This document shows positions 2,380 through 62,350 of a DNA stretch of 64,000 nt, one piece after another. Origin of the DNA: Crambe crambe (lineage: Eukaryota; Porifera; Demospongiae; Poecilosclerida; Crambeidae); assembly GCA_963924555.1 (NCBI GenBank), contig OZ004583.1, positions 8,694,582 to 8,758,581 on the forward strand, read 5' to 3'. The notes under the pieces were generated by a model that saw only the letters and a program-made list of their open reading frames with translations, was not told the DNA's origin and searched no databases. A program made the translations under genes and the position numbers. Within the stretch, counting starts at the first letter, position 1. Each line of letters begins with the position of its first letter.

Positions 2380-3792
2380 TAGGATATTTGTCCCTCCTGC
2401 CTGGTTGCCCACCACACTGGAACTAGAGCTCCCCCTTTGGTCTAGAACTTCTGGAAACTGTTCTCCGCTCACACTCAAAGGTCTTCATCAAGGTACGTAC
2501 CCCCTTAATCTAAAATGATTTAATTGTTACCTCATTCTGCAGGAGAAGCTTTTCAACCAGCTATTGACGGAGTGTGTGTGTCCCCTGGTGGTCAAACTCT
2601 TCTCCCCTACTTCCAAGTATTGTCAAACCTCCCCCACCCCTTCCTCTGGTTCCCCCACCACAGCTGCCATGCTGGCTGCTGATAAGCCGACCTTTGCACT
2701 CTCTGTCAGACTGTTGAGAATCTTGAATGTCCTAATAAGGGAATTCTATTCTTGTTTGGTAAATTACAAAATAATAATGATTTCTGTATTAGTTAATGAG
2801 TCATGGGTGATATCGTCTGTGTTGCTCCAGGTAACACAGTGTGAAATCTTCCTTTCAATGTTGGTCAAGTTCCTTGATTCAGACAAGCTGATGTGGCAAC
2901 ACACCCTTGTAGTGGAGGTCCTTTATTCCTTCTGCAATCAACCTGACTTCTTAAAAGTAAGTCACTCAACCCTAAAGATAGACACCAATATAGAACTAGA
3001 GGACAACCTCTCTATAGGGATGAAATATATAGGAGGTGGAAATTCCATCATCACCTATATAATTATGTTTATGCAACTATCCATCCTTTACCATACATCA
3101 CATGTGTATTTGCATTACTAGCTGCCCTTTACCATTCAACAAATTTGTATCTACCCCAGGTCAATGACATGCAGGATCGTTCCTCTAAAATCTTTGGAGA
3201 TATCGTAGATACTCTCGGAGGTTTCATCCAATCATACTTCACCACCACTCTTCCTTTGGCATCACTGCCTTATCTCCTACTTCCTCCACCCACAGGAAAT
3301 AGTAATGGAAATCTCACAACAGGAAGTGAAACTGGAAGTACAACAGGCAGTGGAAGATACACCCACCAGTTCAGTTTGAGGAATGTGACCATAAGTGCTG
3401 ACCCCATTCCCATCAATGCCCACACCAAGCCTGTATGGTGAGTGATGCATTCACTGATCACATGACTTCATATGATATGGGTACCGGGTGATTCCTGCAT
3501 TGATCACATGATTATCACATGACTCTGCACACACTGCACTGAATATAAAATATGCTGATCATAGCTATGTATTTATCACATGATTATCACATGACTCTGC
3601 ACACACTGCACTATAGTTTGGAGATGCTGGATAAATATGAAGTGCCACTTATTCCAGATGGCTATCCCCTGGATGCCGTTAAGAGTGTGTCCCTCATCGT
3701 TAACAGCAGTGATAATAGTTCAGCCAAGCTGCGACGTAAGCAGCCGCCTCCTCCCTCCAGCATGCGGGCAATGGAGCAACATTCTGTGGAAG
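2380..3792 (+). pseudogene. MON2: Decayed MON2 internal exons 6-10 (unit 1)
   Basis: Five exon remnants match the good exons at 53854-55386. Exon 6 (about 2383-2495) lacks 17 bases. Exon 7 (2543-2758) is whole with splice sites. Exon 8 (2831-2956) has an extra base before its donor. Exon 9 (3160-3437) lacks about 14 bases at its start. Exon 10 (3617-3792) is internally shortened, and its end is fused to the last bases of exon 22 (CTGTGGAAG before GTCAG), so the exons between were lost. It is followed by the same sequence that follows exon 22. It cannot encode a normal MON2 segment. Confidence 0.85.
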
Positions 3793-3961
3793 GTCAGTTG
3801 CCTTGGTCATGTGACCTTTTTTAAAATTAGTATGTGTATATAAAAAATAGTCTACATGATTATTTTGAGTGGCTATTTTATTTGTTATGAATTTTCAAGT
3901 AGTAATAGTAATATTTTCAAGTAGTACTCAAGTACACATGTTCAGTTCTGTACTGCTCTTT

Positions 3962-4426
3962 TTAACGGTATCCAATAGCAAAGAGACGTGCCCCTGCATG
4001 GCTGCCATGTCTAGCTGGTACAGTGAGGTAGACCCTGCGATTAGGAGGCATTGGGAACCACATGTTCTCAGAGTTAGTGTTCCAAGCATCTTGAGTCCAT
4101 GAGTATAACGTGAGGTACTTCTCATATCGTGTGGTTCCAATCTGAGTGAAGACTTTGAGGTCATGATAAGATCCACGGTTACTATAACCACTGCTTGCAC
4201 CCACAAAGATCAGTACTTCCCTAGCACTGGAGGGAATGATGTTGGGGATGGTAAAGGTCATAGTTGAAGCATGTTGCAGATTTGATGAACCAATGGAGGT
4301 TTTTATGACAGATGTCCAGTTGACAGGATGATAGTGTGACCATGTGGTTGGAGGAGTAGTGCTGCTGCATTTGGACATGCAGAGCAGAATGAAAATAGCA
4401 ATATTCGAAGCAGAGAAAGTCACCAT
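3962..4426 (-). CDS. Small secreted protein, copy 1 (unnamed family)
   Basis: A 154-residue protein in one exon. The N-terminus (about residues 1-22) is a likely signal peptide with the hydrophobic core IAIFILLC. The mature part holds IPSSAREVLIFVG, VFTQIG, NMWFPMPPNRRVYLTVP and a C-terminal IGYR. I recall similar predicted proteins from sponges and cnidarians but no named family; a lectin-like beta fold is only a guess. A TATA box lies 64-72 bases upstream of the start. It sits antisense behind the MON2 remnant, where the same family occurs downstream of true exon 22. Compared with copy 2, differences cluster in two short stretches. Confidence 0.75.
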   Translation of the reverse strand: MVTFSASNIAIFILLCMSKCSSTTPPTTWSHYHPVNWTSVIKTSIGSSNLQHASTMTFTIPNIIPSSAREVLIFVGASSGYSNRGSYHDLKVFTQIGTTRYEKYLTLYSWTQDAWNTNSENMWFPMPPNRRVYLTVPARHGSHAGARLFAIGYR

Positions 4427-4489
4427 TGTTAGTTTTTAGGTTGCTTTGAGAAGTCAGCTATAACTTGAAAGATAATTGTGAAAAATGCT

Positions 4490-4498: not shown

Positions 4499-5199
4499 GC
4501 AGGAAGCCACCGAAAACGTGTTATTCCTTGTTTCTCAGTTGTGGGCATATCCATTGAATTGGGTACATTAAATTCATATTGGAGTTTGTTGACCTTTGAA
4601 GTTCAGTGCCACCTGTACAAGTGTACATGTGGTGCATCACTTGTTTATAGTTGTTTATGACATCACTGTTCACCCCTCAATAGATCTCTGACAGCAGAGT
4701 TCATGGTGCAACTGCCCAGGTGTGTGTATTTGTGCTGGATAGTCATGGCAAATAAGTTCAATATATTCAGGCATTCTAGCTATAATGAAAACCATGTCAT
4801 TGGCCACTCTGCACTGCAAAAAACCAACCATACAAGTGTGGCACCATTTTTTTTAGAATCACAATTCACCTCCTGCTATATAGTTAGAAGGTAATTGCAT
4901 ATTCAATTATTCAAACTTTAATCCTATGACATTATTGATATTTCAGAGTCTCTTATTAGACATACACTTCAGCAAGGTGTACCTGTGTCTTGTAGAACTA
5001 CAGCGGGTTATATATTTATTAAATGGCTATTTCATATATCCTTAACTTGTCACCTGTAGATGTAGCTGTACCCTGCAAAATACAATAATTTACTTAGAGC
5101 ACTGAAGGTCATGCTGCATGTGTAATATAGCACTTGAAGTGTGGCTCATTGAGTTAAAAGAGTAATTTTTATTCTGGAATGTGTCTTTACTCCATACAG

Positions 5200-5408
5200 G
5201 TAACAACATAAGAGTCTGCAACAACACACACTTGGTATTGTCGGTGATGGGGCTTGTGGAAAAACCTGTCTCCTCTTTTGCCTTCACGAAGGACAAGTTC
5301 CCTGACAAGTACATCCCAACTGTCTTTGAGAATTACATGTCTGATATCAAAGTGGACAGGAAACTGTTAGAACTATACTAACCCCACACTGACGTCATCC
5401 TAGCTATT
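5200..5408 (+). pseudogene. Rho-type GTPase exon fragment, unit 1
   Basis: The text decodes, with breaks, to Rho motifs: VFENYMSDIKVD follows a damaged P-loop region, and NTDVILAIS-like bases follow. A whole Rho would have KLVIVGDGACGKTCLL and a G3 DTAGQE segment; the first is out of frame by one T in a T run and the second is missing. The same frame slip is shared with unit 2, so the gene died before the units were copied. Confidence 0.7.
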
Positions 5409-5682
5409 TCTTGTGGTCATACATGTATGTATTATGATTCTGTTAGCACAGATATAATACCAGAAATGCTTTTCAGGGGGCACGAATCTTGATTCACAGA
5501 ACTTGCTGAGTGGTCAGTGGTCACATGACCAATCCTTCATTGTAATAGCAATCACATGACTAAGATTTATATGACTGATCGCGTGACTGAGCCTTATCGT
5601 ATACTTCATAATCATTACTAGTGTTACTGCACATACTGCCATGTAGCTAACACATATTTGTCTACTATACAGAACTGATTAT

Positions 5683-5900
5683 TCAGTTGATTAAATGTTG
5701 TGATGCCCAATATATATTGCCATAGATATAGTTGTAGTCTGGAAGCTGCTCAATAGGATCTGTGTGTAAAAATAAGTTGGCCATGACAATAATGTACACA
5801 GTGGATGATTTGATTCCAACTTACCAATACCAACAACAGCAGGGCACTGGTCATAGATGTAATGAGAACACACTTCCTTCACCACCTTGGCATTCACTTG
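5683..5900 (-). pseudogene. UQCRC1: Last two exons of a UQCRC1-like gene, unit 1
   Basis: Exon 5825-5900 follows an AG acceptor and encodes VNAKVVKEVCSHYIYDQCPAV, ending in a GTAAGT donor. Exon 5683-5759 joins in phase and encodes DPIEQLPDYNYIYGNIYW, then a stop. This matches the C-terminus of the complex III core protein UQCRC1 (known ending: SKYIYDQCPAVAGYGPIEQLPDYN split around an intron). No upstream exons are seen before MON2 exon 1, so it is a 3' fragment carried with the unit, though the two exons are themselves intact. Confidence 0.8.
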
Positions 5901-6350
5901 CTAAAGGGGGTATATGTTTTCATTAAAAATTAATACTTTTTGCAAGTGTCATCCATAGAGTAGATTGCCTTGCTAAAATGAACGAATGCATCCACATGGA
6001 AATAGTGACATTGATTGCATGACATCATCGAATGACCATGGTTTGTCAACATCATGTAACTGCTGGTACTATTTTGGGGCGGCAGAACAAGTTTGATGTG
6101 CTATTGTTCCCATACAATAGCACAATAAAGGGTCAGCTACGCCAGACTAGGGAGGTGCACACTTGCATTATGTGATCAAGCACATGGCCACTTTACAGTT
6201 CATTTTTCATGTCGGCAAGAGAATTCTCTGGAAGATTATATTGCAGCTTCTGTTTTGTTACAATAGAATGATGAGAATACTAGCATAATTGAAGCATAAT
6301 AGGTAGCTCATGTGAGCAGAATAGATTACAGTTGTTAGCATAATTAAGTA

Positions 6351-6517
6351 TCAAGCTTGGAATAGAGCAGAGCATAATAGGTAAAGAATGTGCACCTCCC
6401 TACTCATACCCCTTTTCCTTCCCTTGGGTTGTGGTATCAAGCTTGGAATAGAGCAGAGCATAATAGGTAAAGAATGTGCACCTCCCTACTCATACCCCTT
6501 TTCCTTCCCTTGGGTTG
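6351..6517. repeat. Tandem duplication of about 85 bases upstream of MON2 exon 1
   Basis: A stretch starting TATCAAGCTTGGAATAGAGC and ending CCCTTGGGTTGT occurs twice in a row. Unit 3 also has two copies (about 42711-42871) but unit 2 has one (about 18914-19000). It lies about 350 bases before the MON2 start codon in each unit. Confidence 0.7.
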
Positions 6518-6870
6518 TAAAGGGTCGGACTATTCATACATTGAGAGGAGAACCTAGATGCAAAGGTTACATATCCCAATATCGATATGCACACTAGCAC
6601 TGCATGCTACCGACCCCTTACCAAATCAAGACCCCCTTGACATGATTTACCCTTTCCTTCAGTTCAGTAAAGTCTCATAGTGACGTAGATGTAGAGATTC
6701 TCCTTTTACCTGTTGATAGGGTCTGGTGCTGGCTCGCGAGACAATTTCTACTTAAAGCTTACGAACTCTTGCTGGTACATGGTGAGGCGACATTGTCACA
6801 TGACTAGTTCGTGATTCCATAGCTGGTGTGCTTTATTTCGAATACATTTGCTTGCAGTTTACGAGGGGGC

Positions 6871-8560
6871 ATGTCGAATCCTGAGGCCAGCTCCAAAGGC
6901 CGTAGACGGGGAGAAGACGGGGCAGCCTTGAAGCAGTTGGTCCAAACTCTCAGAGGAGACCTCAATACCCTCTCCAATGAAGCCAGGAAGAAATATCCTG
7001 CTGTCAGGGAGGTAAGTAAGGGATAATATAAATCTCTGAAGTATTGTTACTGAGTTCTGAGTTCTGCACTGGTATGCTGTGGTTCGGATAAAACACTCAT
7101 CCACCCCAGGGCTGTCCTCAGAGCATGTTAGTGCGGTGTTACTATAATAAATTTGTGTATGTAAAGAAGTATGTGCCTCTCTAACAGATGGCCATAACAG
7201 AATTGTGATAACAATAGCCGTACATTATTATTATTATTATTATTATTATTATAAAGAAAAAGAACAAAAGATATTGTGTTTTTTTTCTTATGTTAGTGAA
7301 TGGACATCCGGTTACCATGATATATTCACATCAATGCCCCTTTCACATGTTACATTAATTTTCTCACTCCTTCCTCTTTCTTCTGTCCCTCCTCACTTCT
7401 TCCTCTTCTCCTCTCACTCCCTCTCTTCCTTCCCTCTCTCCTCCCTTTCTCCCTTCTCACCTCCTCTCTCTTCTCTTCATCCCCTCCTCCACCTACTCCT
7501 CTAGGCGGCAGAAAGAAGTGGAATGCGCCTGAAGACATTATCAGAGTCCAGAGGCTTCAGCATTAATGGTACAAATGTCCACAATAGGGTTACTACTGCA
7601 ATCACTCATTGTTGTTCCTTCCTCAGTATTGGCAGGGACGGATGATGTGGTTCACCCGTTGCTATTTGCCTGTGAGACCAAATACCCTCCCATCGTCAAG
7701 ATTGCACTCTCTTTCCTGCAAAAACTCATTCAATACAAAGCCATTCCCAAGGTATGTCTCATTTAGAAGGGTATAGTCTTGCTCATGCATTGAGGGTGGC
7801 TTCACATATTTTCAACCCTTTACCAACTCAAGGGAAAGTATAATTATTGCTCATGAAGGAGATGGTATAGGAGCCATGTCCTCTTTATTGACCACATGCC
7901 CAAATAGCATTACATACATGGGAGGTTAGGTGGAAAGGTACGTTTTTTTGTTGTTTTTTGCAGAAGAGTGTGGAGTCCATTGTTGCTACTCTCCGTGTGC
8001 TGATGGACGCAGGTGTGGAGGAACTCAAGGTCCTACAGACTATCCTCCTCTTGGTCACCACCACTGATGTGGTCCAAGGAAAACCCCTCTCCAAGGTATA
8101 GACCACCACTCCTGGCTTTGTGCCCAACTCCTCCCCCAACATACAACTATACCTAATCTGTACACCTCCAAAAGCATATGATTACTCAGCACATTCATGC
8201 ATATCACTCCATTGCTCTCCATTCCTTCATACATTACATCTGCTATGTTTCCTTCACCCACTTCATGTTAATATTTACATACCCTCCCTCTCTCCCCTCT
8301 TCTAATATCTTCATTTCTCATCTCCTTCCCCCCCTCCCTGTGCACAGACTCTACTACTATGTTTCGGGATGTACTCTTCACGTGACCCCAGCATCCACAA
8401 CACAGCAGGTGTGGTCATCAGACAGATCGTGTCCTCCATGTTTGAGAGACTCAACTCCTTCATCAGCAGCAAGACTGGGTCCTTTGACTGGGAAGAAGGA
8501 AAGGAGACAGATCGTGGTCAACTCCCCATACAGGCTAGCGATGCCTATCTACTCTTTCAA
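6871..8560 (+). CDS. MON2: MON2 exons 1-5, copy A
   Basis: Exons 6871-7011, 7505-7568, 7627-7751, 7964-8095 and 8348-8560 have GT-AG borders and matching phases. They encode the N-terminus of MON2, a large scaffold of the Dopey-MON2 endosome-Golgi pathway related to Sec7 Arf-GEF flanking (DCB/HUS) domains. Landmarks are KYPAVRE, EELKVLQTILLL (human EELKLLQTVLVLL) and SDAYLLFQ. The exons end exactly where intact exon 6 should join, but the next MON2 sequence in this unit is a decayed block (15168-16008). Whether it makes a truncated protein, or splices far to 53854, is unknown. It differs from copies B and C by few bases. Confidence 0.85.
7217..7252. repeat. ATT microsatellite in MON2 intron 1, copy A
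   Basis: About eleven ATT repeats. The matching tracts at 19685-19703 and 43582-43601 are shorter, so the length varies between units. Confidence 0.8.
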
Positions 8561-8651
8561 GTAAGTAACTATTGAATACCAAAGGGATTTTTTTATAGAC
8601 TAGTGAGAAATTCTGCATTCTCTTCTAGCTAAGCCTAAGGCTGTAATTAAG

Positions 8652-8818
8652 CCACTAATCCGAATAGCTTGGGATCAACCTGAACCCATTTGGAATAGTG
8701 ATAGATTTGGATTAGTGAATGCATACAGTTTGAATGGAACACTTTCTAGTTTTCATTTAATGCACCTCAAAATAGCTATTCGCATTTGTGAAGCGGATTA
8801 AAGGGGTTTGGATTAGTG
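8652..8818. mobile_element. Small inverted-repeat element (MITE)
   Basis: CACTAATCCGAATAG at the left is matched in reverse by GGTTTGGATTAGTG at the right. The homologous insert in unit 3 (45028-45167) has fuller ends beginning TGGACCCTC. It has no coding capacity and lies in the intron behind MON2 exon 5 in all three units, so it predates the duplication. Confidence 0.6.
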
Positions 8819-8998
8819 GTGTAGCCAGATTTCAAAGTGCTGATAACCATAGGTCATCCTTGATACAGTGGATTGCAGTGATCTTGCAACAGAACACCAA
8901 ACCAAAAAAGGTTCAAAGGTCAATTAAATGCTTATGCGTCGTGCACAAAGAATAAATTTCGTGGACTCGGAAGGACTGCAAAAACCACGAAAATAACC

Positions 8999-8999
8999 C

Positions 9000-9030
<31 letters not shown>
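8999..9030. repeat. C homopolymer followed by A homopolymer
   Basis: About 22 C then about 10 A. Unit 2 carries the same at 21468-21498 with fewer bases. Such runs are unstable and also poorly resolved by sequencing. Confidence 0.85.
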
Positions 9031-9031
<1 letters not shown>

Positions 9032-9710
9032 AATTTGTACCCGTAGATTTCAATGCCACCCAGCTTTTGTAAGCGTTTTGTGGCAAGCATTACAGGTTCA
9101 CATTAACAGCTTCCTACATGCAGCTGCCTGGCTGATACAAGTAATCTACCACATGATTAATAGGTAATCACATGCTTTTTCGTGCAATTTGCACTCAGCT
9201 TGCCTCGTGCAATTACCAAGCCTGTTTCAAATTACACTCAAAAGCATGTGATGCATATCTAGCTAGAGCTGCTTTTTCCAGTCCTGGTGAAATTTTTTAT
9301 TTTTATTATTATTTTTTTTTGGTGTGTGTGGATTAGGAGGTTGCTAGTCATCATTGTGGTGTGCATTAAATGAAGTGTGGTGTGCATTAATTAATAATTT
9401 TATAGCCATCTCATTTAATTCCTATATGCACACCCTAGCCCTTGACAACTTGATTAAAGAAATAAGAAGCATACATATAATGATTTGTGTGTCACACTCC
9501 GAGCTTTATACAGTGGTTATCATCTCTGCAGCTTTATTTATCACATTAATTATGTAATAGTTAGAACATGGGAGTCCCAGTGATTATGGCCGTAAACTAT
9601 TGAGTCCAAGGGTGCAGCCCATTATACAATACCTACAGTATATGTGTGATATTAGCTATAATAATTACATTTATGCTGTTATTTTTCCTCTTTCTCTTCT
9701 TTTTTCTTTT

Positions 9711-10502
9711 TCATTTTTCATCCTTATTGTTTTTCATACCAAGTATCCATGCCACAGCACCCACAACACCACCCACTGCTGCACCATACGTCCAATGTTT
9801 CTCTAATCTTAGTTTGCACTCTTCCTTGCCTTTATCAATCATGATCTCACGGAGAATCTCCAACCATTTTCTATCTGGTATCACTTCATCGTCATCATTC
9901 CTACCAACTGGTACAGCAATGATAACATTCTCTAGATTTTGTTTGGGTTCAAGTTCAAATATAGTCTTCACTGTCACGTCCTTAACTCCGAGGCTTTTTA
10001 ATTCTTCTTCAAAATTTTTGGCATATTCTTTGAGGTAGTCTTTGTATTGTTCAAGTGAGTAATTCTCTAGATCTATTTGATTGGCAAAGGTGAAAGCAAT
10101 GACACAGTTTTTCCAGATAACTTTTCCAAATCTGCTTTGCAGGTTCTTCATTATTTCTGAATTGTTGTCCTCAAATTTAGATGCTAGAGTAACTGGCACA
10201 CAGTACAACAAGAGGTGGAGAAATCCTCTTTCTTTTTCAGCAAAATCAAATAGTTTCTTAAGTTGCTCCTTCTCTTTCCCTATCAACAATCCAGGATTAT
10301 CAATGATAGTTAATAGTACATTTTCTTTTATCTTTGATATAGTTTCACATATCTTTGTGTCGGGATGAAGATTCAAATTTTTTTTGCATTTGCCAAGAAT
10401 TTTGTGTGCCAGAGTTGTTTTTCCTGCTCCACTTTTTCCTACAACAGCAATGATGATTTCACGAGGCTCCTTTTCTTTGGGTGAGCTTTCATATGAAGCC
10501 AT
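9711..10502 (-). CDS. Short AIG1/GIMAP-like GTPase, intact
   Basis: A 263-residue single-exon protein. The P-loop GKSGAGKT is at about residues 22-29, a G3 motif DNPG at 68-71, and the AIG1-typical hydrophobic strand LHLLLYCVPV follows. In the G4 position it reads FTFANQIDL instead of the usual T/NKxD, so base specificity is uncertain. A C-terminal small-residue segment (AAVGGVVGAVAWILG) could anchor it in a membrane. AIG1/GIMAP proteins are membrane-linked GTPases, often immune-related. A CCTTTCAG acceptor 20 bases upstream of the start suggests a 5'UTR intron. It lies antisense downstream of MON2 exon 5 copy A and is the only unbroken short-class member in the window. Confidence 0.85.
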   Translation of the reverse strand: MASYESSPKEKEPREIIIAVVGKSGAGKTTLAHKILGKCKKNLNLHPDTKICETISKIKENVLLTIIDNPGLLIGKEKEQLKKLFDFAEKERGFLHLLLYCVPVTLASKFEDNNSEIMKNLQSRFGKVIWKNCVIAFTFANQIDLENYSLEQYKDYLKEYAKNFEEELKSLGVKDVTVKTIFELEPKQNLENVIIAVPVGRNDDDEVIPDRKWLEILREIMIDKGKEECKLRLEKHWTYGAAVGGVVGAVAWILGMKNNKDEK

Positions 10503-10968
10503 CTTTATCTAGCATTTGTTAGCCAAAAATCAACTGAAAGGTTTAACAATTAATATCCTAGACTGCACACTTTAAATTAAAGGGAAAAATAAGAGGAACT
10601 TTATAATCTTACTCTAAGCATGCATACATGCATCTGAAAAAGGGGAGGAACAATGCAATAGGCATAATAATTACATCCTATTGCTATATTGCATGTTGGT
10701 GTTTGTGGTCCTTGGGCTTCGGTACAATTAATCCTCATCCCCATGCTTAGTATAAGTATGTGTACATGCATGCTTGGGTTATTGTTCCTCCTGTTCTTTT
10801 GAAGCATACATGTCTGTTCTTTTGACATGTTATAATTACATATTATACTCACATTCTTGAGATATTGATGCACTGTATGCACATACTTTTGGCTTAATAC
10901 GAGTGTGGTTATTGAAATAATGGGTAACTTATATGCAGAATATGATGTCTAAAATTAATTCTACTCAC

Positions 10969-15130: not shown

Positions 15131-15167
15131 TTAAGGAGTCATGGGTGATATCATCTGTGTTGCTCCA

Positions 15168-16008
15168 GGTAACAGTGTGAAATCTTCCTTTCAAGGTCGA
15201 AAGTCCATTATCACCTATATAATTATTTATGCAACTATTTACCCTTTACCATACATCATATGTGTGTTTGCATTACTAGCTACCCTTTACCATTCAACAA
15301 ATTTGTATCCACCCCAGGTCCTTTCGTGTCAGCAGGAGCAATCTTTGGAGATATATCGTAGATGCTCTCGGAGGTTTCATCCAATCTTACTTCACCAGTC
15401 ACTGCCTTATCTCTTACTTCAGGAAATAGTAATGGAAATCTCACAACAGGAAGTGCAATTGGAAGTACAACATGAAGTGGAAGATACACCCACCAGTTCA
15501 GTTTGAGGATAAGTGCTGACCCCATTCCCACCAATGCCCACATCAAGTCTATATGGTAAGTGATGCATTCACTGATCACATGACTTCATATTTAAAGTGG
15601 GATATGGGTGATTCCTGCATTGATGACATGATTATCACATGACTCTACACACACTGCACTGAATATAAAATATGTGCTGATCATATGTATTTATCACATG
15701 ATTATCACATGCGCACACTGCTTTGCACTGTAGTTCATTGATCACATGATTATCACATGACTGCACACACTGCTCTGTACTGTAGTTCATTTATCACATG
15801 ACTCTGCACACATTGCACTGTAGTTTGGAGATGCTGGATAAATATGAAGTGCCACTTATTCCAGATAGCTATCCTCTCGTGGTGGCCCTAAATGCTCTCC
15901 TGGAGAGTATGTCCCTCATCGTTAACAGGAGTGATGATAGTTCAGCCAAGCTGCGATATAAGCAGCCACCTCCTCCTTCCAGCATGCAGGGCAATGGAGC
16001 AGATGAAG
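15168..16008 (+). pseudogene. MON2: Decayed MON2 exons 8-10 (unit 2)
   Basis: Only about 25 bases of exon 8 remain after its acceptor, followed by an internal deletion. Exon 9 (15318-15555) has several gaps against 54618-54920. Exon 10 (15824-16008) is close to the good exon but ends early in GATGAAG before GTCAGTTGCC, again the sequence that follows exon 22. So units 1 and 2 share the exon 10-to-22 fusion. Exons 6 and 7 are gone here. Confidence 0.8.
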
Positions 16009-16165
16009 GTCAGTTGCCTTGGTCATGTGACCTCTTTTTAATTAGTATGTGTATATGTATATGTACATATTGATTCTATAAAAAATAGTCTACATGATTA
16101 TTTTGAGTGGCTATTTTTCAAGTAGTAATACTTGAGTACACATGTTCAGTTCTGTACTGCTCTTT

Positions 16166-46566: not shown

Positions 46567-46806
46567 TTTCTTTCACTTGTTTGTTTACTTTTTATATGAC
46601 CTCATTTTTTTATTTAGAGAGGCAGCTACTGGTTGGCACATGCGTACGTACATGCGCATGTGATCGTGATAGACGCTCGCGCGTGACAAATGACATCATT
46701 TATTTATAAAAATTAGGAACTCAATATAATGTGATTAATAATACAAATAATACACAACGTTATTATTTTATTTATATAAAGCATGCACAAATCACTATAG
46801 TTGCAT

Positions 46807-48694: not shown

Positions 48695-48752
48695 CGATAT
48701 TCCCAGCTTCATTCGTGTAGGAATAAAATTTATCAGTGGATGGATCTAATAT
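48695..48752 (-). pseudogene. Scrap of a long GTPase
   Basis: About 55 bases coding DPSTDKFYSYTNEAGN match the segment just after the P-loop of the long class. Nothing adjoining belongs to the gene. Confidence 0.65.
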
Positions 48753-48881
48753 GCACTAATGAGTTGCCATATTGCCAAAAGTACTTGAAGGAGCTCATTA
48801 CTGTATTAAAGTAGTGAAGTAGCTATGAAACCCAATGAATGAATAAATAAAACTAGCTAGTTATCTCAGCATTCAATGTTA

Positions 48882-50312: not shown

Positions 50313-50572
50313 TGTTATCCTTCCTGCACCAAGCACTCCGCCACCTCCCCCTTTTTAAGAACTCAGTGTATTCATAGATCATGAATCTACACCATGACAA
50401 TCATCCTAAAATGGAGTTTGCATTTTTTTTCTCCTTTAGCACCAGTGCATATGTTAGAGTCTATTGCATTGCTTTCTTCTGATATAGAGTCTGCTCATCA
50501 ACATCTGCACTTTTGAAGGATCACAGATGATAGCCAATGGATATTCAGCCAAAAGAGTATTCATTAAAGTAC

Positions 50573-50620
50573 ATGTCAGTGCTTTCATATTGTCAGCATC
50601 TTGACTAGCAGTAGAGGACC
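50573..50620 (-). pseudogene. Scrap of the Death-domain exon
   Basis: About 45 bases (GTGCTTTCATATTGTCAGCA onwards) match the end of the Death-domain exon near 23728-23770. It shows that unit 3 also once had the Death-domain gene. Confidence 0.6.
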
Positions 50621-50696
50621 AAAGATGAAAATGGTGATTTTAAAAGTCACTGTAAAATACTGCTTTGTCTTCTGCCCTGCATACTTTAGTCCTAGC

Positions 50697-50884
50697 ACAC
50701 TGAAAGTGTTCTGTCTTCAAGTTAGAAGAGAAGTATTTCAGTGTAATGAAAATATAATTCCACGTGCCATCCCTACTCAGAGATGGCATGTGGATAGAGA
50801 TGGCATGTAGAATAACCTTTCATAACACTGAAATACTTCTCTTCTACTGTCTGTTATACTTAAAAGACAGAACACATTCAGTGT
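50697..50884. mobile_element. Foldback MITE, copy 2
   Basis: Sister of 34048-34222 with inverted arms (CACTGAAAGTGTTCTGTC against GACAGAACACATTCAGTG). Confidence 0.65.
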
Positions 50885-51047
50885 GATCTAATCGACTGCA
50901 CAAATGTGATGAACAAAAATAATACAGCTGAGATGAGCTAGTATTGTAGTTAGTATGTGTGGTATAAAGCATGTGTGGTATATAACTACTTCAATGATAA
51001 TGAACATCCTATAAATTTCACGAGACTTGACTGTGATGTACAAATTA

Positions 51048-51460
51048 TTATGCTTCTTTTCTTTTGTTTTCTTTTATAGCATTGACTGTCTTAGCCATAG
51101 CACCCCCACCAAGTGCCCCACCTAATGCCCCACCTCCTGCCCCTCCCACAATGCCACCCACCACACCTCCTGCTATTGCACTCACAGGACCTCCTGGTAC
51201 TCCAAGCAATGCACCAACTGTTGCACCAGCAACAGCACCTCCACTAACACCACCTCCCACTGCAGCAATCCCCACAATAGTTTTCAAGTTCCAATATTTC
51301 TGTAGTCTTAGTTTGCACTCTTCCTTGCCTTTAGCAATCATCTGTATACGGAGAATGTCCAACCATTTCTCTTTATTTTGAATACCAGGCATCACTTCAT
51401 CATCATCGTCATCACCAACTCAAACTCAGCAAACTCTGTGACATTCTCTCGAGATGCCAT
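51048..51460 (-). pseudogene. Short AIG1/GIMAP-like GTPase with its core deleted
   Basis: The start MASRENVTEFAEFE (51460) is joined directly to the bases for VGDDDDDEVMPGIQ, so the whole GTPase core is gone and the joint is out of frame. The C-terminal frame (51048-51395) keeps RLQKYWNLKTIVGIAAVGGG and a glycine-rich tail. Confidence 0.8.
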
Positions 51461-51704
51461 TGTATCAACTAGAAATAGTTCTAAACTGAATATAGCTGGC
51501 TTGCTATCGTTCTTGCCATTCTTGTCAAACAGGTTTAGTCTTTAATTGTGCAGTATGTATGTGTGATCAACACCACATGCATGGATTCTTCTGGCAGTGT
51601 ACAAAGATCGGTAGTCAACCTTTCATTAAGATATCTTATTTAGCCATAATATCACACTGTTATGGAGTCCTGTGACTAAATTTCATACAAGATCCATCAT
51701 AACC

Positions 51705-51842
51705 CTCCCCCCTCCCCTCCTCCCTCCTCCTCTCTCCCCTCCCTCTTCCCCCTCCTCCCTCCTCCTCTCTCCCCTCCCTCTTCCCCCTCCCCCTCCTCCC
51801 CCCTCCCCCTCTCCCCTCCTCTTTCCCCTCCCCCCTCCCCCC
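51705..51842. repeat. Polypyrimidine tract, second copy
   Basis: C/T-only tract matching 1500-1705, here just 3' of the long GTPase gene at 51947-53332. Confidence 0.75.
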
Positions 51843-51946
51843 CAATGAAAATGATAATACATAACAATAATGTATATAATAATAATGTAAGACAAATTTT
51901 AGTGTCTGTTAATCAAAATGAGTTTAGCTTGGTCTTTGCATTCGTA

Positions 51947-53332
51947 CTAGTCATTTTCATCTTCTTCTACTCTCTTTTGGTAATCTTTCTTCAAGACTTC
52001 ATCGACCAGACGAGGACCAGAATGTCCCATAGCAGCTCCTGCAGTACCAAACGCTAGAGCACCGATTCCTGCGCCTATGACCCCTGTCCCCGCTCCAATG
52101 GCCAAGCCCAGGGGACCTCCGGCCAATCCCCCAATGCCAGCTCCTACTCCGGCACCGACTGCCAGCGCTCCACCCAATCCTCCAACAGATGCAGTGAGAA
52201 GTGTAGCTTTAGCTCCATACTTGAATTTAAGCAGGGTTTCTTGGCCTTCTTCCCTGCACTTGAGGACCATCAGATCAAAGAGGATGCGTTTCCAATCTTC
52301 ATTAGTCTCTTGAAAGCCAGGCATCACCATGTCGTCACGGTGGTCGTCACCAAAACCAGCTGGCACAGCTAGTAATGTGGCCAAATCATCACGTGCCAAT
52401 TCAAGATTATTGTACTCGAATATCGTTTTTACTGTTATGTTTTCAACTTCGATTCTCCTCAGCGCATTCATAATTTTCTCCTTAATGCCTTCTGTATTGA
52501 TTTTCTTCAATGCATTCTTGAACTTGCCGGCATAACTCTGTATATGTGCCTTGTACTTCTCTTCTTTGTCTTCGTTGGTCTTGGACTTTCTTTGTCGTCT
52601 CCATGCAACATTGCTGTAGGTGAAAACAACAATGCAATGCTTCCAAATTTCTTTCCCATAAGCACTTTGTATGCAAGAAATTATATCGAGATTGCCAGCA
52701 TCAAACTTTGCTCCAGGACTTACTGATATACAGAGCAAGATAAGATCGGCTTTGTCCCTCAAATGCCAAGACAGCTGCTTTAAATCACTCATCCTGTTGC
52801 TTGATTTCAGCCCTGGACAGTCGATAACTGTAATATTCCCAGCTTCATTCGTGTAGGAACGAAATGTATCAGTAGATGGATCTGGACTCATTTCTACTTC
52901 ACTCTCCTTACCAAGAAGATTGTAAATGAGAGTGGTTTTCCCCGCACCACTTTTTCCCAGAATAGCAATTGTGACATCTCTGTTTGGATTTGGGTTTTGT
53001 TGTATGGGAACTTCATCGGCAGAGTCATCGTCATCATCTGAAGCTATTCCAGCACTGCTTTCTACTTCAGATAGTTCTCCCACACTTAGTTCATCTAGAG
53101 CAGGCAAACCTCCAACAGGGGCAAAGCTCTGTGGTCTACTTGGAGGCTCTGAAGAGCTTTCACTACCTACAGTGAGGGTAATTTCTAGAGGAGCTGAATT
53201 AACTTCTGTGGAAGATCCTGTTCTGCCTTTAGCTTCTTTTCCATTAGGAATCACAGCTGCTAAACTTTCAGTAGAATACTGATTAGTATTTTCCTGTTGA
53301 TTTAGAGTGATTTTAGAGTCACCATTAGCCAT
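51947..53332 (-). CDS. Long AIG1/GIMAP-like GTPase, intact
   Basis: A 461-residue protein from MANGDSKITLN. Residues 1-117 form a polar linker with SDDDDDSADE. P-loop GKSGAGKT is at 126-133, G3 DCPG at 171-174, and the G4 place at about 237 reads FTYSN rather than NKxD. From about 385 a small-residue zone runs through AGIGGLAGGPLGLAIGAG to AFGTAGA, and the end is charged (KKDYQKRVEEDE). It is very close to 27164-28591, which lost this tail. It lies antisense about 520 bases before MON2 exon 6. Confidence 0.87.
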   Translation of the reverse strand: MANGDSKITLNQQENTNQYSTESLAAVIPNGKEAKGRTGSSTEVNSAPLEITLTVGSESSSEPPSRPQSFAPVGGLPALDELSVGELSEVESSAGIASDDDDDSADEVPIQQNPNPNRDVTIAILGKSGAGKTTLIYNLLGKESEVEMSPDPSTDTFRSYTNEAGNITVIDCPGLKSSNRMSDLKQLSWHLRDKADLILLCISVSPGAKFDAGNLDIISCIQSAYGKEIWKHCIVVFTYSNVAWRRQRKSKTNEDKEEKYKAHIQSYAGKFKNALKKINTEGIKEKIMNALRRIEVENITVKTIFEYNNLELARDDLATLLAVPAGFGDDHRDDMVMPGFQETNEDWKRILFDLMVLKCREEGQETLLKFKYGAKATLLTASVGGLGGALAVGAGVGAGIGGLAGGPLGLAIGAGTGVIGAGIGALAFGTAGAAMGHSGPRLVDEVLKKDYQKRVEEDEND

Positions 53333-53853
53333 GTCTTTTATGACAGACATGCAGCTATTGTTTCCTAATATAGCTTTGTTTCCTCTGTCATATGATTTAG
53401 TCTTGATCTTAAGATAAGCATTCTTCAGACCACCACTCTCTGTGTACTTGTAGTAGATACAATTGATTTTACAACAGTATCTGTTACCACAGGTTACCAC
53501 ATCTCATCGATGTAGCCAGAGTTTGGTTAACCACTGGCCACAAACACTGTTGCCATACAGTAAAACTTGCAACAGAGTTGGTAACCTGTGATAGGATGCT
53601 GTTGCAAGTCTTATTACAGAGGTTTTCTGGTTGGTTGACCAGTAGAATCTGCACACGTGCAAGATAAATTCAAGCAAGCAACTGTCATAGGTCTTAATTT
53701 TAGCGAGCATGAATTCAATTCTGCAGTGTTGGCAAATTTTGTGACCACCAACCTGAAAACCAACTGTATAAGACAGTGTAATGACATGGCCATTGAGGGA
53801 GGGAGGGACTAGTATTCCTATTATCACCTTCTCCTCCCCTTGATCTTCCTTAG

Positions 53854-56848
<2,995 letters not shown>

Positions 56849-57177
56849 GTATGTAACTTCCCAACAGGTAGACTAAGTACTGTAAGGAGTATTCACATAG
56901 ATGTATGGGTGTGGTTACAATTGGCCTATGCAGAGTGAGACGGACACTGCTATATGCAATGTCATTCGCAAGGTCATAATCCACACATCATCATAAATAT
57001 ACATTCAATTATTTGCTGATGACTGCATAACACATTGAGCTTTGAGAGCTGACCAAATACAGAATGGTTTTAGCAACCTTGTAATCTAACAGCCTCTCAT
57101 TCACCTCTCATGTTTGCTGTGACTACTAGGTAGTCTCCAAGGGACTTCCCCAGGGGAATTCCCATTTCCTTTCAGTG

Positions 57178-57187
57178 TATATAAAAG
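57178..57187 (+). promoter_or_regulatory. TATA box of the nested intronless gene
   Basis: TATATAAAAG lies 49 bases before the start codon at 57236, a fitting core promoter with a leader of about 25 bases. Confidence 0.65.
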
Positions 57188-57235
57188 CAGCAGAGAAGAT
57201 TTAGCAAGAAAAATATTGATCTACTAGTAATAGAA

Positions 57236-58150
57236 ATGGAAGAAGAAAACACGGAAGAAGAAAAAGTACAAAGTCATTCAAGCATAGGAGAAGAAATAGC
57301 AGATATTTTAAAATCTGTAAAAAAGAATTTTGATCTTCTCAATGAAGTATTAGGAACAGTGAAAAGTACTATACCTGACCTGATAGCTCGCATCCAAGAT
57401 GAAGTGAATCAAAAGGGCACAGTTAAGGTTGCTGAACTGAGATTGTCTTTTCACAAATGCAGTAGTGGTCTGTCCAAAATGTTTCAGGCTTACCGTAATT
57501 TTTTCGTTCAGGTTGAAGACATGTGTAAGCACTGTCGACTTGATGATTTCTCACTGTTTCGAATGAAACTATTTGCCCTGTTTGGCTGCTATGGTTATGC
57601 CCTGAGCTATATCAGAAGTGTGCAATACTATCTTCGCAAGGTCCAAAAACTGTATGATGCTTTTATGACGATCTTTAATGAAACAATCAGTTTATGTGGT
57701 CAAGAAGTAGGCGCGTCTTTACGCAACCGTAAGCAGGCTAGTGTGAAGAAGTCGATTTCCACAAGTACTGCAGTTCTATTTATTGGTGGTGGTATTTTAA
57801 CTGGTGGGGTTGGTTTTGTGATTGGTTTAGCTGTTGGAGGAGCCAGTGTTTACACTGCATATAATTACAATTCCACTGAATCAAAATTCAAAGCAATTGG
57901 TGATAAATTTGACTCTGCTTATGCCAAAGCTTCACAAGTGGAAGCAAATTTAACAGCGTTTAATGTGAGCTTAAGTTCTATTTCCATGAAATTGGATGTT
58001 TTCGAGCATCATATTGAAGAAGGAGCTTCCTACAGCTTCTTTTCGCATGCAATTGGAAGTCTTCTGTGTGGATTTAAGGAGATATCTGGAACTTCTCTCA
58101 CCTCACATCAGTGGATTAATACAATTAATATAGCAGACTTTAAGGACTAG
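57236..58150 (+). CDS. Intronless helical protein with central glycine-rich hydrophobic segment
   Basis: A 304-residue protein I do not recognise. It begins with an acidic stretch (MEEENTEEEK), then long amphipathic helices (residues about 15-165) with a cysteine-bearing part (EDMCKHCR). A hydrophobic, glycine-rich segment of about 30 residues (177-209, FIGGGILTGGVGFVIGLAV) could cross or enter a membrane, and is followed by another helix with heptad character (AIGDKFDSAYAKASQVEANL). No signal peptide is seen. The layout of helices around one small-residue hydrophobic segment recalls membrane-inserting helical proteins such as the apolipoprotein L kind, but no motif proves it. It is nested, same strand, in the intron between MON2 exons 14 and 15, with its own TATA box. 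Confidence 0.75.
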   Translation: MEEENTEEEKVQSHSSIGEEIADILKSVKKNFDLLNEVLGTVKSTIPDLIARIQDEVNQKGTVKVAELRLSFHKCSSGLSKMFQAYRNFFVQVEDMCKHCRLDDFSLFRMKLFALFGCYGYALSYIRSVQYYLRKVQKLYDAFMTIFNETISLCGQEVGASLRNRKQASVKKSISTSTAVLFIGGGILTGGVGFVIGLAVGGASVYTAYNYNSTESKFKAIGDKFDSAYAKASQVEANLTAFNVSLSSISMKLDVFEHHIEEGASYSFFSHAIGSLLCGFKEISGTSLTSHQWINTINIADFKD

Positions 58151-58280
58151 TCAAGATGAAACCAACTTTGATCTTTTTATTAACCCTCCCCGCATGCGTG
58201 AGAGGGTTACGGTAGTTGTCGTTTTTTTAATTAGCTAGTTATCCTTTGTATATTTGTGTCACTGTGTCATGCACCTGATC

Positions 58281-58595
58281 TCTGAGATGGCGAATTTTCA
58301 ACTCTTGAGACAGACACTAGCATAAGTACGCGACAATCTAACACTTAAAAAAAAATTTTTTTTTGATAGCTGCATTTTAGCTACAAACAGCCAGCTTCTA
58401 TTACACTGCAATAATGCATATCTAGAGCCCCTGGTTAAGTGCGCATGTGGTGCCATGCCCCCCTTTCATCATCACTTGCCTGATCTTTGAGATGACGAAT
58501 TTTCAACCCTTGAGACAGACACTAGCAAGAGTCTAACACTTAATTTTTTGATACAGCTGCAAACAGCCAACTTCTACTGTGATATTCCAAATAAT
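58281..58595. repeat. Diverged tandem pair
   Basis: GACGAATTTTCAACCCTTGA and the next 90 bases (about 58490-58580) repeat, with gaps, the segment at about 58285-58400. They lie just downstream of the nested gene. Confidence 0.6.
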
Positions 58596-58639
58596 ACACA
58601 CCCACAATAGTATCGCTCGTTGCCCCACCCCTTTCATCT

Positions 58640-59025
58640 CGGGTCTAAATAAGGGAGGGAGAGTGCCGAACTGCCCATAGAGCGGTCCAAATGGTGTTTG
58701 GAAAATAACATGACACTCGCATGATATAATGTGTAGTTCATTTTGTAATTCAAGCAATATTCCCAGATCCAGACATCAGAGTTGAGCCAAGCCCAGTGCT
58801 AGTCTGGTGTAGCTGATTCCAGGGAGGGAAATATGGTAAAGGGTTGGCTACACCAGATTAGCCCAGCGCAGCGCTCTTACCTATCAGCTCGAGGGCATAG
58901 GTCAGTTATCGCATACTTTGACGTATTTGTCACATGTGAGAGTAAGCACTGGTCATGTTACTTTCCAAACGGTTTTTGTAACAGCTCTACAGACAGTTCG
59001 ACACTCTCCCTCCCTTATTCATTCT
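58640..59025. mobile_element. Foldback element in MON2 intron 14
   Basis: AATAAGGGAGGGAGAGTG at the left is matched in reverse by CACTCTCCCTCCCTTATT at the right, with arms of about 80 bases that include TTTGGAAAATAACATGAC and its relative. A second inverted pair (GTCTGGTGTAGC and GCTACACCAGA) lies inside. No coding content. Confidence 0.65.
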
Positions 59026-59254
59026 TGTCTATAGCACATCCTAGCCTTTTACCCAGGCCTTATAAATAAGGGCCTGGTATCCACTATTTGCGTGTGCGCA
59101 ACCCCAGCATCTATGATGTAGAGTGGGAGGTGCTAATTTGATGACTCGATCTTTGCCGCAGAAACACAGAAAAGTAGGCCTTCACACACTTTTTCTCGAT
59201 CCTCTGACCTGATCCTTCATCCGGAGCAAGAACTGCACTTCTCTTCCCAGCTTA

Positions 59255-59554
59255 TTGCTAGCCACATTACAAAGCTTTGTAGTCTCATGCAGCCAGACCT
59301 TTCCAAGACTAGTAGAACTTCTGGTGGTCCACTACAAACGGCAGAACTTGGCTCTTCCCAGAACCAGTCGGCAGATGTACAAATACTTCATAGACAGACC
59401 TGATGGGCCACTCCACATGAGGCAAGCCCAACGTCTCCAAGGGAAAGCGACAGTATCAGAGAAACAAGTATCATTGGTAGCCTCGTTTGTAGCTGAAACT
59501 GGAGCTGGAGAGCACCTTCGGCAGTTGGCATTATTATTGTTTACTACCAACTAG
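59255..59554 (+). other. Short open frame of unknown meaning
   Basis: A 99-residue frame of normal composition (ELLVVHYKRQNLALPRTSRQ). It has no clear promoter or splice sites and matches nothing I know. It lies between two repeat blocks in MON2 intron 14 and may belong to a transposon remnant. Confidence 0.25.
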
Positions 59555-59639
59555 CCGTCATAGAAACAAGGCCCGCCCAATTATTACATTTACGTATCCT
59601 AAAATTTCCTAAAGTGCACAAATTCACGGAAAAGTGTAA

Positions 59640-59965
59640 AAAACCAGTGCATGCTCAAGCAGTAGATACCAGGCCCTTATTTAAAATAAGGCCTGGGTAC
59701 ATGGCCATAGCACATGCATGCGCAAGCAGTAGATATCAGGCCCTTATTTATAAGGCCTGGGTACGTGGCCATAGCACATGCATGCGCAAGCAGTAGATAC
59801 CGGGCCCTTATTTAAGATAAGGCCTGGGTACGTGGCCATAGCACATCATGCACAAGCAGTAGATACCAGGCCCTTATTTATAAGGCCTGGGTACGTGGCC
59901 ATAGCACATCATGCACAAGCAGTAGATACCAGGCCTGGGTACATGGCCATAGCACATGCATGCAT
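59640..59965. repeat. Tandem repeat of about 65 bases with palindromic core
   Basis: About five units, each with GCAAGCAGTAGATACCAGG, then the palindrome GGCCCTTATTTATAAGGCC, then GGGTACGTGGCCATAGCAC. One unit lacks the palindrome. A related piece (AGGCCTTATAAATAAGGGCCT) lies alone near 59060. Confidence 0.8.
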
Positions 59966-60118
59966 GCAGTGCGGAAAGTTTGCACTTTAATGCTTTTCAT
60001 CTATCATGTGACTTACGTACAAAGATTTCAATTACTGTATTAGGGAACATCTGGAGTTAATGATCTTCATCAGCTGTTATTCCCTGACCTAAGAGCATAA
60101 TTATGCTTGTCTCTGTAG

Positions 60119-62350
60119 GCCTTGCTTGCTGTGGCAAAAAAGGAAGAGATTTCAGACATTGCCGATAAACTCACAGGTGTCTTCAAATCCAGCAGGTGAG
60201 AGGAGAGGAAGAGAAACATCATCAGTAGGGTTTTATTGAGGGGTATTTGCCCCTTGGAAATTTATTACCTACCTTTATTACTTTACCCTCCCTTTTCCTT
60301 ACAGCTGACCATTAAAAAATAATGCCCTCCCCCCAATATACATTATTTGTATGTGCCACCCTTGAGCAATTTTCTGAGTGAAACCCTGATCAGCAATCCT
60401 TAAGAGTCGATTTCCCCACCTCCCAGGCAATTACGAGACGTCAGTGCACTCAAACTAGTCGAATCTCTCTCCCAGTTGCTCCTGACAACCTCCCCCGGGG
60501 CAAGTGCAAAGGAGGTAGCCCTGTTCCCCATAGTAGCACTCCAGGAGATAGGGACTGCCAATACTGCCAGACAGGAGGTCATTTGGGAACCTGTCACTAC
60601 TCACCTTTCAGAGGTCAGTCATTTGAATTAAACTCTTCCTCCATAAGTAGTTAGTTGCCTTAGTTGCTTTGGGATATTATTCGCAGGATTTAGTTGGTGA
60701 ATTTCTTTAAAATTGTTTCTATGTTTAGGCTTGTTGCCACAGTGATCCAAGCCTGAGGACGTTTGCAGCAGAAGCACTCACTTCATTGATTAGAGGAGCT
60801 CTTGAAAATGAATCTAATGAGGTGCGTATGTATCATAAACACTGCCAAACTTAGATTTGCCACCATACCAGGAGCATTTGTCACCATACCAGGGGCATTT
60901 ACCACTATACCAGGAGCATTTGCCACCATACCAGGGGCATTTACCACTATACCAGGAGCATTTGCCACCATACCATACCAGGGGCATTTACCACTACCAG
61001 GACTAATGAATGACTCACTTTATTTCTTCTGTTTAGGAGAAGAAGGTGATTCTTTTGTCTCCATTGAAGAAATTGACAGGCATTCAGCATGTGGATGTCA
61101 GACAGAAACAGCTGGATTGCATCAGTCAAGTACGGAGGGAGGGGAACAATGAGGGGAGGAGGGGGAGGGGAACAATGAGGGGAGGAGGGGGAGGGAAGGG
61201 AGGGGAACAATAAGGGGAGGAGGGGAGGGAAGGGAGGGGAACAATGAGGGGAAGAGGGGAGGGGGAACGTAGGTCATTCACTGCCTATTTTCTACTTCAG
61301 GTCCTTCACTCAAGTGGACAGAGTTTTCGTTCCAGCTGGTCAGTGGTGTTGGATGTCATTCAATCAGCTACTCAGATGCAGAGGTGTGCACACACACATA
61401 CATAGCAAAACCACCTTAGAATCCATACAGACCTGCTAATAACAGCAGAACATGGGTCATTCCCACTCAAAATTGCCACATATCCCACCATAATTAGGAC
61501 AAATGGCTAATTTAAATATCAATCAAACTGGACAGAGTGTGCAGATTTCTGGTCAGACCTTTGAGTATTTTTTTTCCACTGTTGATTATGTGCTTAGTGA
61601 ATTGCTGATCAGAAGTGGTTTCCAGAGTCTGCAGTTGGTGATAGCAGACTTCCTTCCAGCCATCCCTCACAGCTATGTCTCCTCTTGCGTGGACATGTCA
61701 GGGCAGTATGGTCTCCAAACTGTCGACATCAACATCTCCCTCACCTCCATAGGACTACTGGTCAGTGTGACATGTAGCTGTACATTTACATGCATGTAGC
61801 TCTCTGTGCTTCAAAGGAAAGAATTCCTCTGCTTTGGTCATATTTTAAAAGCATCTGTGAATGCTTATCAACTCAGCTCATTTATGTAGCATATGTAAGC
61901 TTCTATTTTTGTTTTTATTTATTTATTTTTATTTATTTTTTGCAGTGGAATATGGCAGACTATCTCTTCCAAAGTAAGTCTACTCTGAGAGAGAGTTTGT
62001 TGCCTAATACCTATGATGCTGTTTGGATGCTCCTCTTCAAGTGAGTTCACCATCACCACACTGTATCCACAACCGTACTGTAAGAAGATGATGATTCCTC
62101 TCATCCTTGTCCTTCTCCCTGCTTTCTTCTCCTCTTCTCCCCTCATTCTTCTTCTCCCTCTCATCTTTTCCCCTCCCACTGCTTCTCATCCCCCTCATCT
62201 TCTCCCTCCTCCTCTCTCAGACACCTTTCAGACCTGTGTGTTGACGAGAGGGCAGCAGTGAGGAAGAGTGCCAGCCAGACCCTATTCTCCACCATCTCTG
62301 CCCATGGCACACTCCTCCAGAAGGAGACATGGAAGGACGTCCTGTGGAAG
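60119..62350 (+). CDS. MON2: MON2 exons 15-22 (gene continues beyond the window)
   Basis: Exons 60119-60195, 60427-60613, 60729-60821, 61037-61129, 61301-61383, 61598-61760, 61946-62040 and 62221-62350, with matching phases. Landmarks against human MON2: [13 protein letters not shown] (human [12 protein letters not shown]), [44 protein letters not shown] and [22 protein letters not shown]. Exon 20 was started after TGCTTAG because only this gives the right phase. The last exon ends WKDVLWK with a GTCAGT donor, corresponding to human VIWKVLFHLL, so the C-terminal third of MON2 must lie to the right. Confidence 0.92.
60858..61008. repeat. Minisatellite of 21 bases in MON2 intron 17
   Basis: About seven units of the type CACCATACCAGGAGCATTTG. 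It is open in both directions but lies between exons 17 and 18. Confidence 0.85.
61134..61272. repeat. Purine-rich minisatellite in MON2 intron 18
   Basis: About four units of GGGGAACAATGAGGGGAGG type. Confidence 0.8.

Follow-up and report, generated by a model that had tools for sequence, protein, structure and literature searches.

In the demosponge Crambe crambe, a 64,000-nt window on contig C5 (C5:8694582-8758581 of a 143-Mb, 119-contig assembly) contains a tandem array of partial copies of MON2, the housekeeping gene of a Golgi-associated protein with DCB, HUS and Mon2_C domains. Our preferred explanation, which we put forward tentatively, is that the 5' part of MON2 was duplicated in tandem repeatedly, that the copies were locally homogenised, and that purifying selection acted on the DCB frame, with the extra copies making DCB-only proteins. 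In this scheme a cluster of AIG1 GTPase genes would have been the setting for several tandem duplications of the 5' segment (exons 1-10), leaving one apparently complete gene (copy C) at the right end, preceded by the partial copies E, D, A and B. The sequence itself shows damage to the HUS-coding exons 6-10 of all extra copies; it also shows that the five DCB exons of D, A and B are intact, have been partly homogenised along with upstream DNA, and have changed mostly at silent sites.

The analysed region comprised the window extended by 100 kb leftward and 50 kb rightward, 214 kb that lie on one contig with zero N. Positions are given in window coordinates, negative values lying left of the window, and genome-wide match counts, in DNA and profile searches alike, are lower bounds. 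With capital letters for the copies of exons 1-5 and small letters for the decayed blocks of exons 6-10, the parts follow one another from left to right as E, d, D, a, A, b, B, c, C, and then come the sound exons from 6 on.

Open DCB copies and the apparently complete gene

Within the window, exons 1-5 are present on the plus strand in copy A (6871-7011, 7505-7568, 7627-7751, 7964-8095 and 8348-8560; span 6871..8560), copy B (19332-19472, 19965-20028, 20087-20211, 20424-20555 and 20818-21030; span 19332..21030) and copy C (43228-43368, 43861-43924, 43983-44107, 44323-44454 and 44714-44926; span 43228..44926), the last of which starts the apparently complete gene. A fourth open copy, D, lies left of the window at -11518 to -9939. 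The spliced models of all four have 675 nt and 225 open codons; over these 675 sites A and B differ at 5, A and C at 9, and B and C at 12 (98.2-99.3% identity), in agreement with an earlier reading of the window from its letters (the sequence-only reading), which had reported three open sets at about 99% identity. That reading had the three sets of the window right, but the array continues further left with the open copy D, the decayed fifth copy E (~-30.5 to -28.3 kb) and decayed block d. Copy E has neither exon 1 nor exon 5 intact and has lost 9 nt of exon 3 and 10 nt of exon 4. Two more exon 5 fragments were seen left of the window, at -9387 to -9238 and, on the minus strand, at -24192 to -24341.

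The protein encoded by exons 1-5 matches the DCB profile (PF16213) over positions 3-173 of 177, with E-values of 1.9e-53 for copy C and 2.3e-52 for copy A, the two whole proteins scanned. A PDB search with it at E up to 1 listed three sequences, two of them DCB structures of BIG1 (5ee5, E 4.3e-5; 5j5c, 2.4e-4). For intron 2 (58 nt) we adopted the spliced model over an unspliced reading of exons 2-3, because it gives one continuous DCB match and because exon 2 in this model resembles human MON2. All four introns are kept in A, B and D, so these copies do not have the intron-less structure of processed pseudogenes. Searching the assembly with the DNA of exons 4-5 gave at least 11 matches, all at C5:8664900-8739507, and the DCB profile found at least 17 matches genome-wide, 16 of them in the MON2 array. 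The remaining one, on another contig (C15:3015776-3015895; profile positions 138-176, 31.2 bits), presumably belongs to another DCB-containing gene.

Copy C continues on the plus strand into sound exons 6-10 (53854-53979, 54030-54245, 54304-54428, 54618-54920 and from ~55132; span 53854..55384, the end of exon 10 not being fixed). The joined exons 6-9 encode a HUS domain (PF12783, E 7.6e-29) following the DCB domain; exon 7 alone had no match in Pfam or in the PDB search. Middle exons with roughly placed borders follow at 55742..62350 on the plus strand, up to the first Mon2_C exon found (62231-62350), which matches positions 102-141 of the 819 in PF16206. Beyond the right edge of the window, Mon2_C exons were found at 74917-75063, 75286-75492, 101944-102216, 104115-104285, 104663-104953, 105380-105553 and 105905-106183. 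Seven of the eight pieces tested there match the profile (positions 141-187, 186-232, 373-432, 619-658, 709-747, 746-775 and 771-819), the matches to 619-658 and 746-775 being individually under the curated cut-off, and 105905-106183 ends at position 819 of 819. Profile positions 233-372, 433-618 and 659-708 had no match in any piece tested, and no Pfam match was obtained for 55762-55941 (exon 11), 59137-59400 or 101040-101234. Because both ends are matched and the pieces lie in order, copy C appears to be a complete MON2 gene that runs past the window to ~106183. It would span ~63 kb, and other genes lie within its introns of 8.9, 12.6 and ~25 kb, the right border of the ~25-kb intron being uncertain.

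From exon 11 on, 22 stop-free exon pieces, some rough-bordered, matched just themselves in the 214-kb region (tblastn, E up to 1e-3); the piece 60732-60860 has no open frame and was dropped from this comparison. In a genome-wide DNA search exon 11 matched once, to itself. To the right of the window, at 64194-64990, two short fragments resembling the end of exon 62231-62350 (ETWKGVLWK) recur in the array that follows there; tblastn at E 1e-3 did not report them. An intact single-exon open frame of 321 aa lies in a MON2 intron on the plus strand (57185-58150); it has no Pfam match and is single-copy in the 214-kb region.

The extra sets of exons 6-10 are all decayed. Block a of copy D (2383..3818, plus strand) has a 17-nt deletion in exon 6, a +1 insertion in exon 8 and deletions in exons 9 and 10, with exon 7 open; block b of copy A (15136..16055, plus strand) retains exons 9-10; block c of copy B (38980..39503, plus strand) retains exons 6-8 with deletions of 11, 4, 23, 4 and 10 nt, exon 8 being open; and block d, left of the window (~-13.8 to -13.3 kb), retains exons 6-8. 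The presence of these sets indicates that the copied stretch extended to exon 10. The three blocks inside the window had been recognised by the sequence-only reading, and its single sound set holds for exons 6-9: among the listed matches to their DNA (at least seven in the assembly, C5 being the only contig among them), six of seven fall in damaged blocks and one is the set at 53854-54920. The exon at 62231-62350 is, however, not the end of the gene, as Mon2_C continues to ~106183, and to describe MON2 as broken up is misleading, since its last copy looks like a complete gene. In the four units left of C, the exon 6-10 part is damaged in all four and the exon 1-5 part is intact in three. HUS and Mon2_C were accordingly not found in A, B and D, whose exon 6-10 copies are damaged, the 22 pieces from exon 11 on matching solely themselves in the 214-kb region.

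Homogenisation and proposed selection on the DCB frame

The noncoding DNA around the copies varies in divergence from one stretch to the next. Between A and B, a homogenised tract takes in the upstream region and exons 1-5 (4500..9500), with 0.4-3.2% noncoding divergence per 500-nt interval against 6-13% on its flanks. Between C and B, a second tract (42200..44200) has ~1% noncoding divergence, compared with 6.7% at 41.2 kb and 6-17% after 44.2 kb. Copy D differs from B by 8-14% in five upstream intervals, by 4.5% in the first one (111 nt) and by 1.4% at exon 5. The mosaic sites group A with C against B with D at three positions and A with B against C with D at two. The divergence profile is the one that gene conversion acting tract by tract, or repeated unequal exchange, leaves behind. 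Over the kilobase before exon 1, A, B and C agree at 98-99% of aligned bases, and the same tracts leave the upstream region of A and B, presumably including the promoter, almost like that of C. Exon-limited (cDNA-mediated) conversion had been suggested by a first multiple alignment, in which the introns of D diverged by ~20% and the exons by 1-2%. It was dropped: the excess is mostly in intron 1, which is poorly alignable (~40%), and introns 2, 3 and 4 differ between B and D by 1.7, 8.2 and 1.1%, around the silent rate.

As the homogenised tracts include noncoding DNA, 99% identity is by itself no sign of selection. Copies A-D vary at 17 of 675 coding sites, 14 silent and 3 replacement (I33 confined to D, F98 confined to A, and G161 shared by A and B where C and D have R), with no insertion or deletion, and no pair differs at more than three amino acids in 225. 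Sites that mark single copies include coding positions 51, 237 and 273 (D), 441 (B), 293 (A) and 375, 418 and 654 (C). The per-site ratio of replacement to silent change (pN/pS) is 0.03-0.13 in the six pairs. When C is removed, 11 variable sites are left among A, B and D, 8 silent and 3 replacement (P 0.0007 in a Fisher test; in a binomial test P 0.0008-0.005, according to the transition bias). In pairwise Poisson tests scaled by the silent rate, neutrality of both partners is rejected in all six pairs, and so is neutrality of one partner (P 0.014 to 9e-8), although the pairs share history and are not independent. Copy D, for instance, differs from the other copies by 1-3 replacement changes, where 16-38 would be expected if both partners were neutral. 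Introns 3 and 4 of A, B and D show insertion and deletion differences and the exons none.

The decayed parts of the array supply a comparison. Copy E was left out of the four-copy statistics because only fragments, or nothing, remain of its exons 1 and 5. In exons 2-4 its private changes are 4 replacement to 2 silent (Fisher P 0.045 against the 3:14 of the four copies and 0.16 against the 3:8 of A, B and D). Relative to the sound exons, replacement and silent changes number 34:33 in block a, 9:13 in block c and 10:8 in block d; against the exon 1-5 ratio of 3:14, Fisher tests give P 0.015 for a, 0.17 for c and 0.035 for d, and 0.018 for the three pooled. Block b (93:43) was excluded from the pooled comparison because its alignment to exon 8 is spurious, tblastn finding only exons 9-10 there.

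Predicted products and competing explanations

What the extra copies would encode depends on how their transcripts end. Reading through exon 5 adds VSNY and then a stop in all four open copies. Splicing into a copy's own decayed block gives D 20 added residues with a stop in exon 6 of block a, and A 62 added residues with a stop in exon 9 of block b. In B, exons 6 and 7 of block c would add 82 residues, because the 11-nt and 4-nt deletions offset each other over some distance; with the intron between these two exons retained, the addition would be 46 residues. By any of these routes the product would have the DCB domain and no more than a fragment of HUS. Among the options offered by the sequence-only reading, truncated DCB-only products are thus the best supported, since exons 1-5 are the DCB domain, their differences are mostly silent and splices into the copies' own blocks run into stops. 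We propose that D, A and B may be transcribed from MON2-like promoters and would yield DCB-only proteins of ~229-307 residues, terminated either by the in-frame stop that follows exon 5 or within a tail read from the damaged exon 6, 7 or 9. At the Golgi, such proteins could bind to the same partners as the DCB domain of MON2 and thereby compete with the full-length protein or modulate it.

Studies of related proteins bear on this proposal. A mammalian Mon2 clone without the DCB part was reported to lose Golgi localisation, both ends of the protein being needed (PMC3842536). The DCB fragment 1-228 of BIG1 was reported to bind Arl1, and its structure was solved with it (PDB 5ee5; PMC4956616); exons 1-5 here likewise encode a complete DCB domain. 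For yeast Sec7, an excess of isolated DCB/HUS is described as inhibiting exchange in trans (PMC4764562). A DCB-only protein acting as a competitor of MON2 is plausible on these analogies, its stability being the main doubt.

Several observations weigh against this explanation. In yeast Sec7, DCB and HUS are reported to form one structural unit, and the N-terminal dimerisation role to be not conserved (PMC4764562); since the two form one unit there, a lone MON2 DCB may be unstable, and transcripts that end past damaged exons might undergo degradation. A large part of the 99% identity is due to conversion or recent exchange, which took in noncoding DNA too. With half of the A, B and D changes taken as neutral, the binomial P rises to 0.018-0.066, so constraint on all three copies has no more than moderate support. 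The changes private to A, B or D number six, 4 silent and 2 replacement (binomial ~0.05, borderline alone), and since these are just 4:2, selection since the last homogenisation is weakly shown. The contrast with the decayed blocks is not clean, as pN/pS is also below 1 there (0.33 in a, 0.22 in c and 0.39 in d), which must partly be due to the functional set used as the comparison; block c alone does not differ in ratio from exons 1-5 (P 0.17). The difference between introns and exons in insertions and deletions is inflated because the introns are of low complexity. Copy D, finally, has within -11580 to -11377 a GC donor instead of GT after exon 1, and 62 nt, as against 13 in the other copies, between a conserved GCAG and the ATG (49 extra nt).

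The most serious rival is that the copies are non-functional hitch-hikers, that is, pseudogene fragments of an AIG1-driven duplication cleaned by recent gene conversion from C. It has to be taken seriously because the homogenisation behind much of the identity includes noncoding DNA: the low-divergence tracts of A-B and B-C take in introns and upstream DNA, the site pattern is mosaic, and the exon 6-10 blocks that lie beyond the tracts are decayed. The 4:2 ratio of private changes would also suit it. We nevertheless think it somewhat less likely, because of the 8 silent to 3 replacement sites among A, B and D, the few replacement changes of D relative to neutral expectation and the absence of exon insertions and deletions in all four copies.

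A bolder version of selective retention seems to us unlikely, namely that the array is a family of MON2 minigenes, either several intact DCB-only genes or tandem in-frame DCB modules, kept by selection within an expanding cluster of AIG1 (immunity-type GTPase) genes and serving as decoys or as regulators in the Golgi and endosome traffic that depends on MON2.

Joining exon 5 to exon 2 of the next copy, or to the sound exon 6 at 53854, keeps the frame, so multi-DCB or alternative-5'-end products are possible. In the latter case A, B, D and C would be alternative promoters, all spliced to 53854 to give full-length MON2, as the sequence-only reading had also considered. The join is indeed in phase, the exon 5 donor is the same in A, B and D and intact in C, and elsewhere in MON2 long introns that contain other genes (8.9, 12.6 and ~25 kb) seem to be in use. 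Nothing else favours this arrangement, and we consider it quite improbable: the acceptor closest to D, as well as that closest to B, belongs to the copy's own damaged exon 6, the splice would jump over further complete sets of exons 1-5, and A, B and C are almost identical, leaving no diversification to select for.

An assembly artefact, in the form of unmerged haplotypes or a misassembled tandem array, is less probable again. This option of the sequence-only reading is weakened by the single contig without N over 214 kb, by noncoding divergence that ranges from 0.4% to 18% per 500-nt interval along the copies, by copy-specific content (a 196-bp triplet in B and a Ty3/gypsy-type open frame between B and C) and by the one exon 11 match in the assembly. 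An in-frame multi-DCB protein, in which exon 5 of one copy is spliced to exon 2 of the next to place 178-residue DCB modules before full MON2, is very improbable: exons 2-5 form a phase 0-0 block of 534 nt and the D-A, A-B and B-C joins keep the frame, yet the exon 1 start and upstream region conserved in A, B and C would be unneeded.

The AIG1 cluster and related systems

The MON2 units are interleaved with AIG1-like blocks, 20 between -24.9 and 53.5 kb, of which 19 are on the minus strand. In the window, an AIG1-family GTPase open frame of 265 aa lies downstream of copy A (9714..10508, minus strand), and its counterpart downstream of B (22206-22974) is split over two frames. A cluster between B and C (25511..38840, minus strand) has open frames at 27167-28597, 35581-37035 and 37564-38562 and one 147-nt piece on the plus strand. 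Five further blocks (45873..53503, minus strand; long open frames 48885-50354 and 51950-53503) occupy intron 5 of the complete gene. Three open reading frames of the window have an AIG1 domain above the Pfam cut-off. Genome-wide there are at least 96 AIG1 matches, 15 of them at C5:8673017-8747553 and 13 of these above the cut-off. A tendency of the AIG family to expand and to lose members has been described (PMC7053062). It is reasonable to suppose that the array arose by co-amplification of the nested AIG1 cluster and the 5' half of its host gene.

Other neighbours include a family of mostly 160-190-aa open frames that share the conserved motif NMWFPMPPNR. Its 27 blocks lie at 62499-64000 and on to 100407 and, for the rest, at 3965-4384, 16169-16588 and 39697-39768. 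Twenty-four of the 27 blocks are inside two MON2 introns, after 62.4 kb, and ten members align to an eleventh at 43-81% identity; a Pfam scan at E 0.01 gave nothing for 16169-16639, the single member examined in this way. Between B and C, a Ty3/gypsy-type open frame with RNase H and integrase domains (28935-30758, plus strand) has no second copy from -40 to 70 kb. A death-domain open frame downstream of A (13686-14129, minus strand) has a diverged copy downstream of B (23679-24089, minus strand). In unit B a 196-bp unit is repeated three times at 99% (16732-17323), and overlapping alignments suggest about one copy of it in unit A.

Judged from its sequence, the array is a partial tandem duplication of a gene's 5' part that looks functional, and events of this kind are known. 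HvARM1 (PMC6092874), which in Triticeae partially duplicates the E3 ligase HvPUB15, similarly derives from a gene for an intracellular protein and keeps the protein-interaction part; in the same way as that functional duplicate, the copies here have an open reading frame over a complete module (225 aa with DCB 3-173 of 177). Most partial duplicates of this kind had, according to the same report, been classed as putative pseudogenes. HvARM1 is, however, a tested gene of its own, whereas here several tandem 5' copies, known from sequence alone, precede the parent gene. Tandem 5' exon sets before one downstream set also characterise the variable-first-exon clusters UGT1, GCNT2 and protocadherin (PMC1885805), but the unit here has five exons, the sets are near-identical and damaged copies of exons 6-10 lie between them. 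The diversified 5' exons of the UGT1 and protocadherin type are not seen, with at most three amino-acid differences in 225. Tandem duplications in Drosophila yakuba are likewise reported to reshuffle gene parts and to be able to change expression (PMC5460883); the present locus differs in its repeated rounds at one place, its homogenisation and the decay of one half. Our search of open-licence literature, covering titles and the starts of abstracts, found neither stand-alone DCB genes beside a full MON2 nor a report of partial MON2 duplication, which does not imply absence from print.

If the extra copies are expressed, one organism would have three stand-alone DCB domains beside one full MON2, a natural test of the DCB domain acting alone, a matter that the Sec7, BIG1 and Mon2 papers answer differently. 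The array is a clear example of a repeated duplicate that keeps one domain-coding half and loses the adjoining one to decay, and the locus suggests that a nested cluster of immune-type genes may drive the duplication of its host gene.

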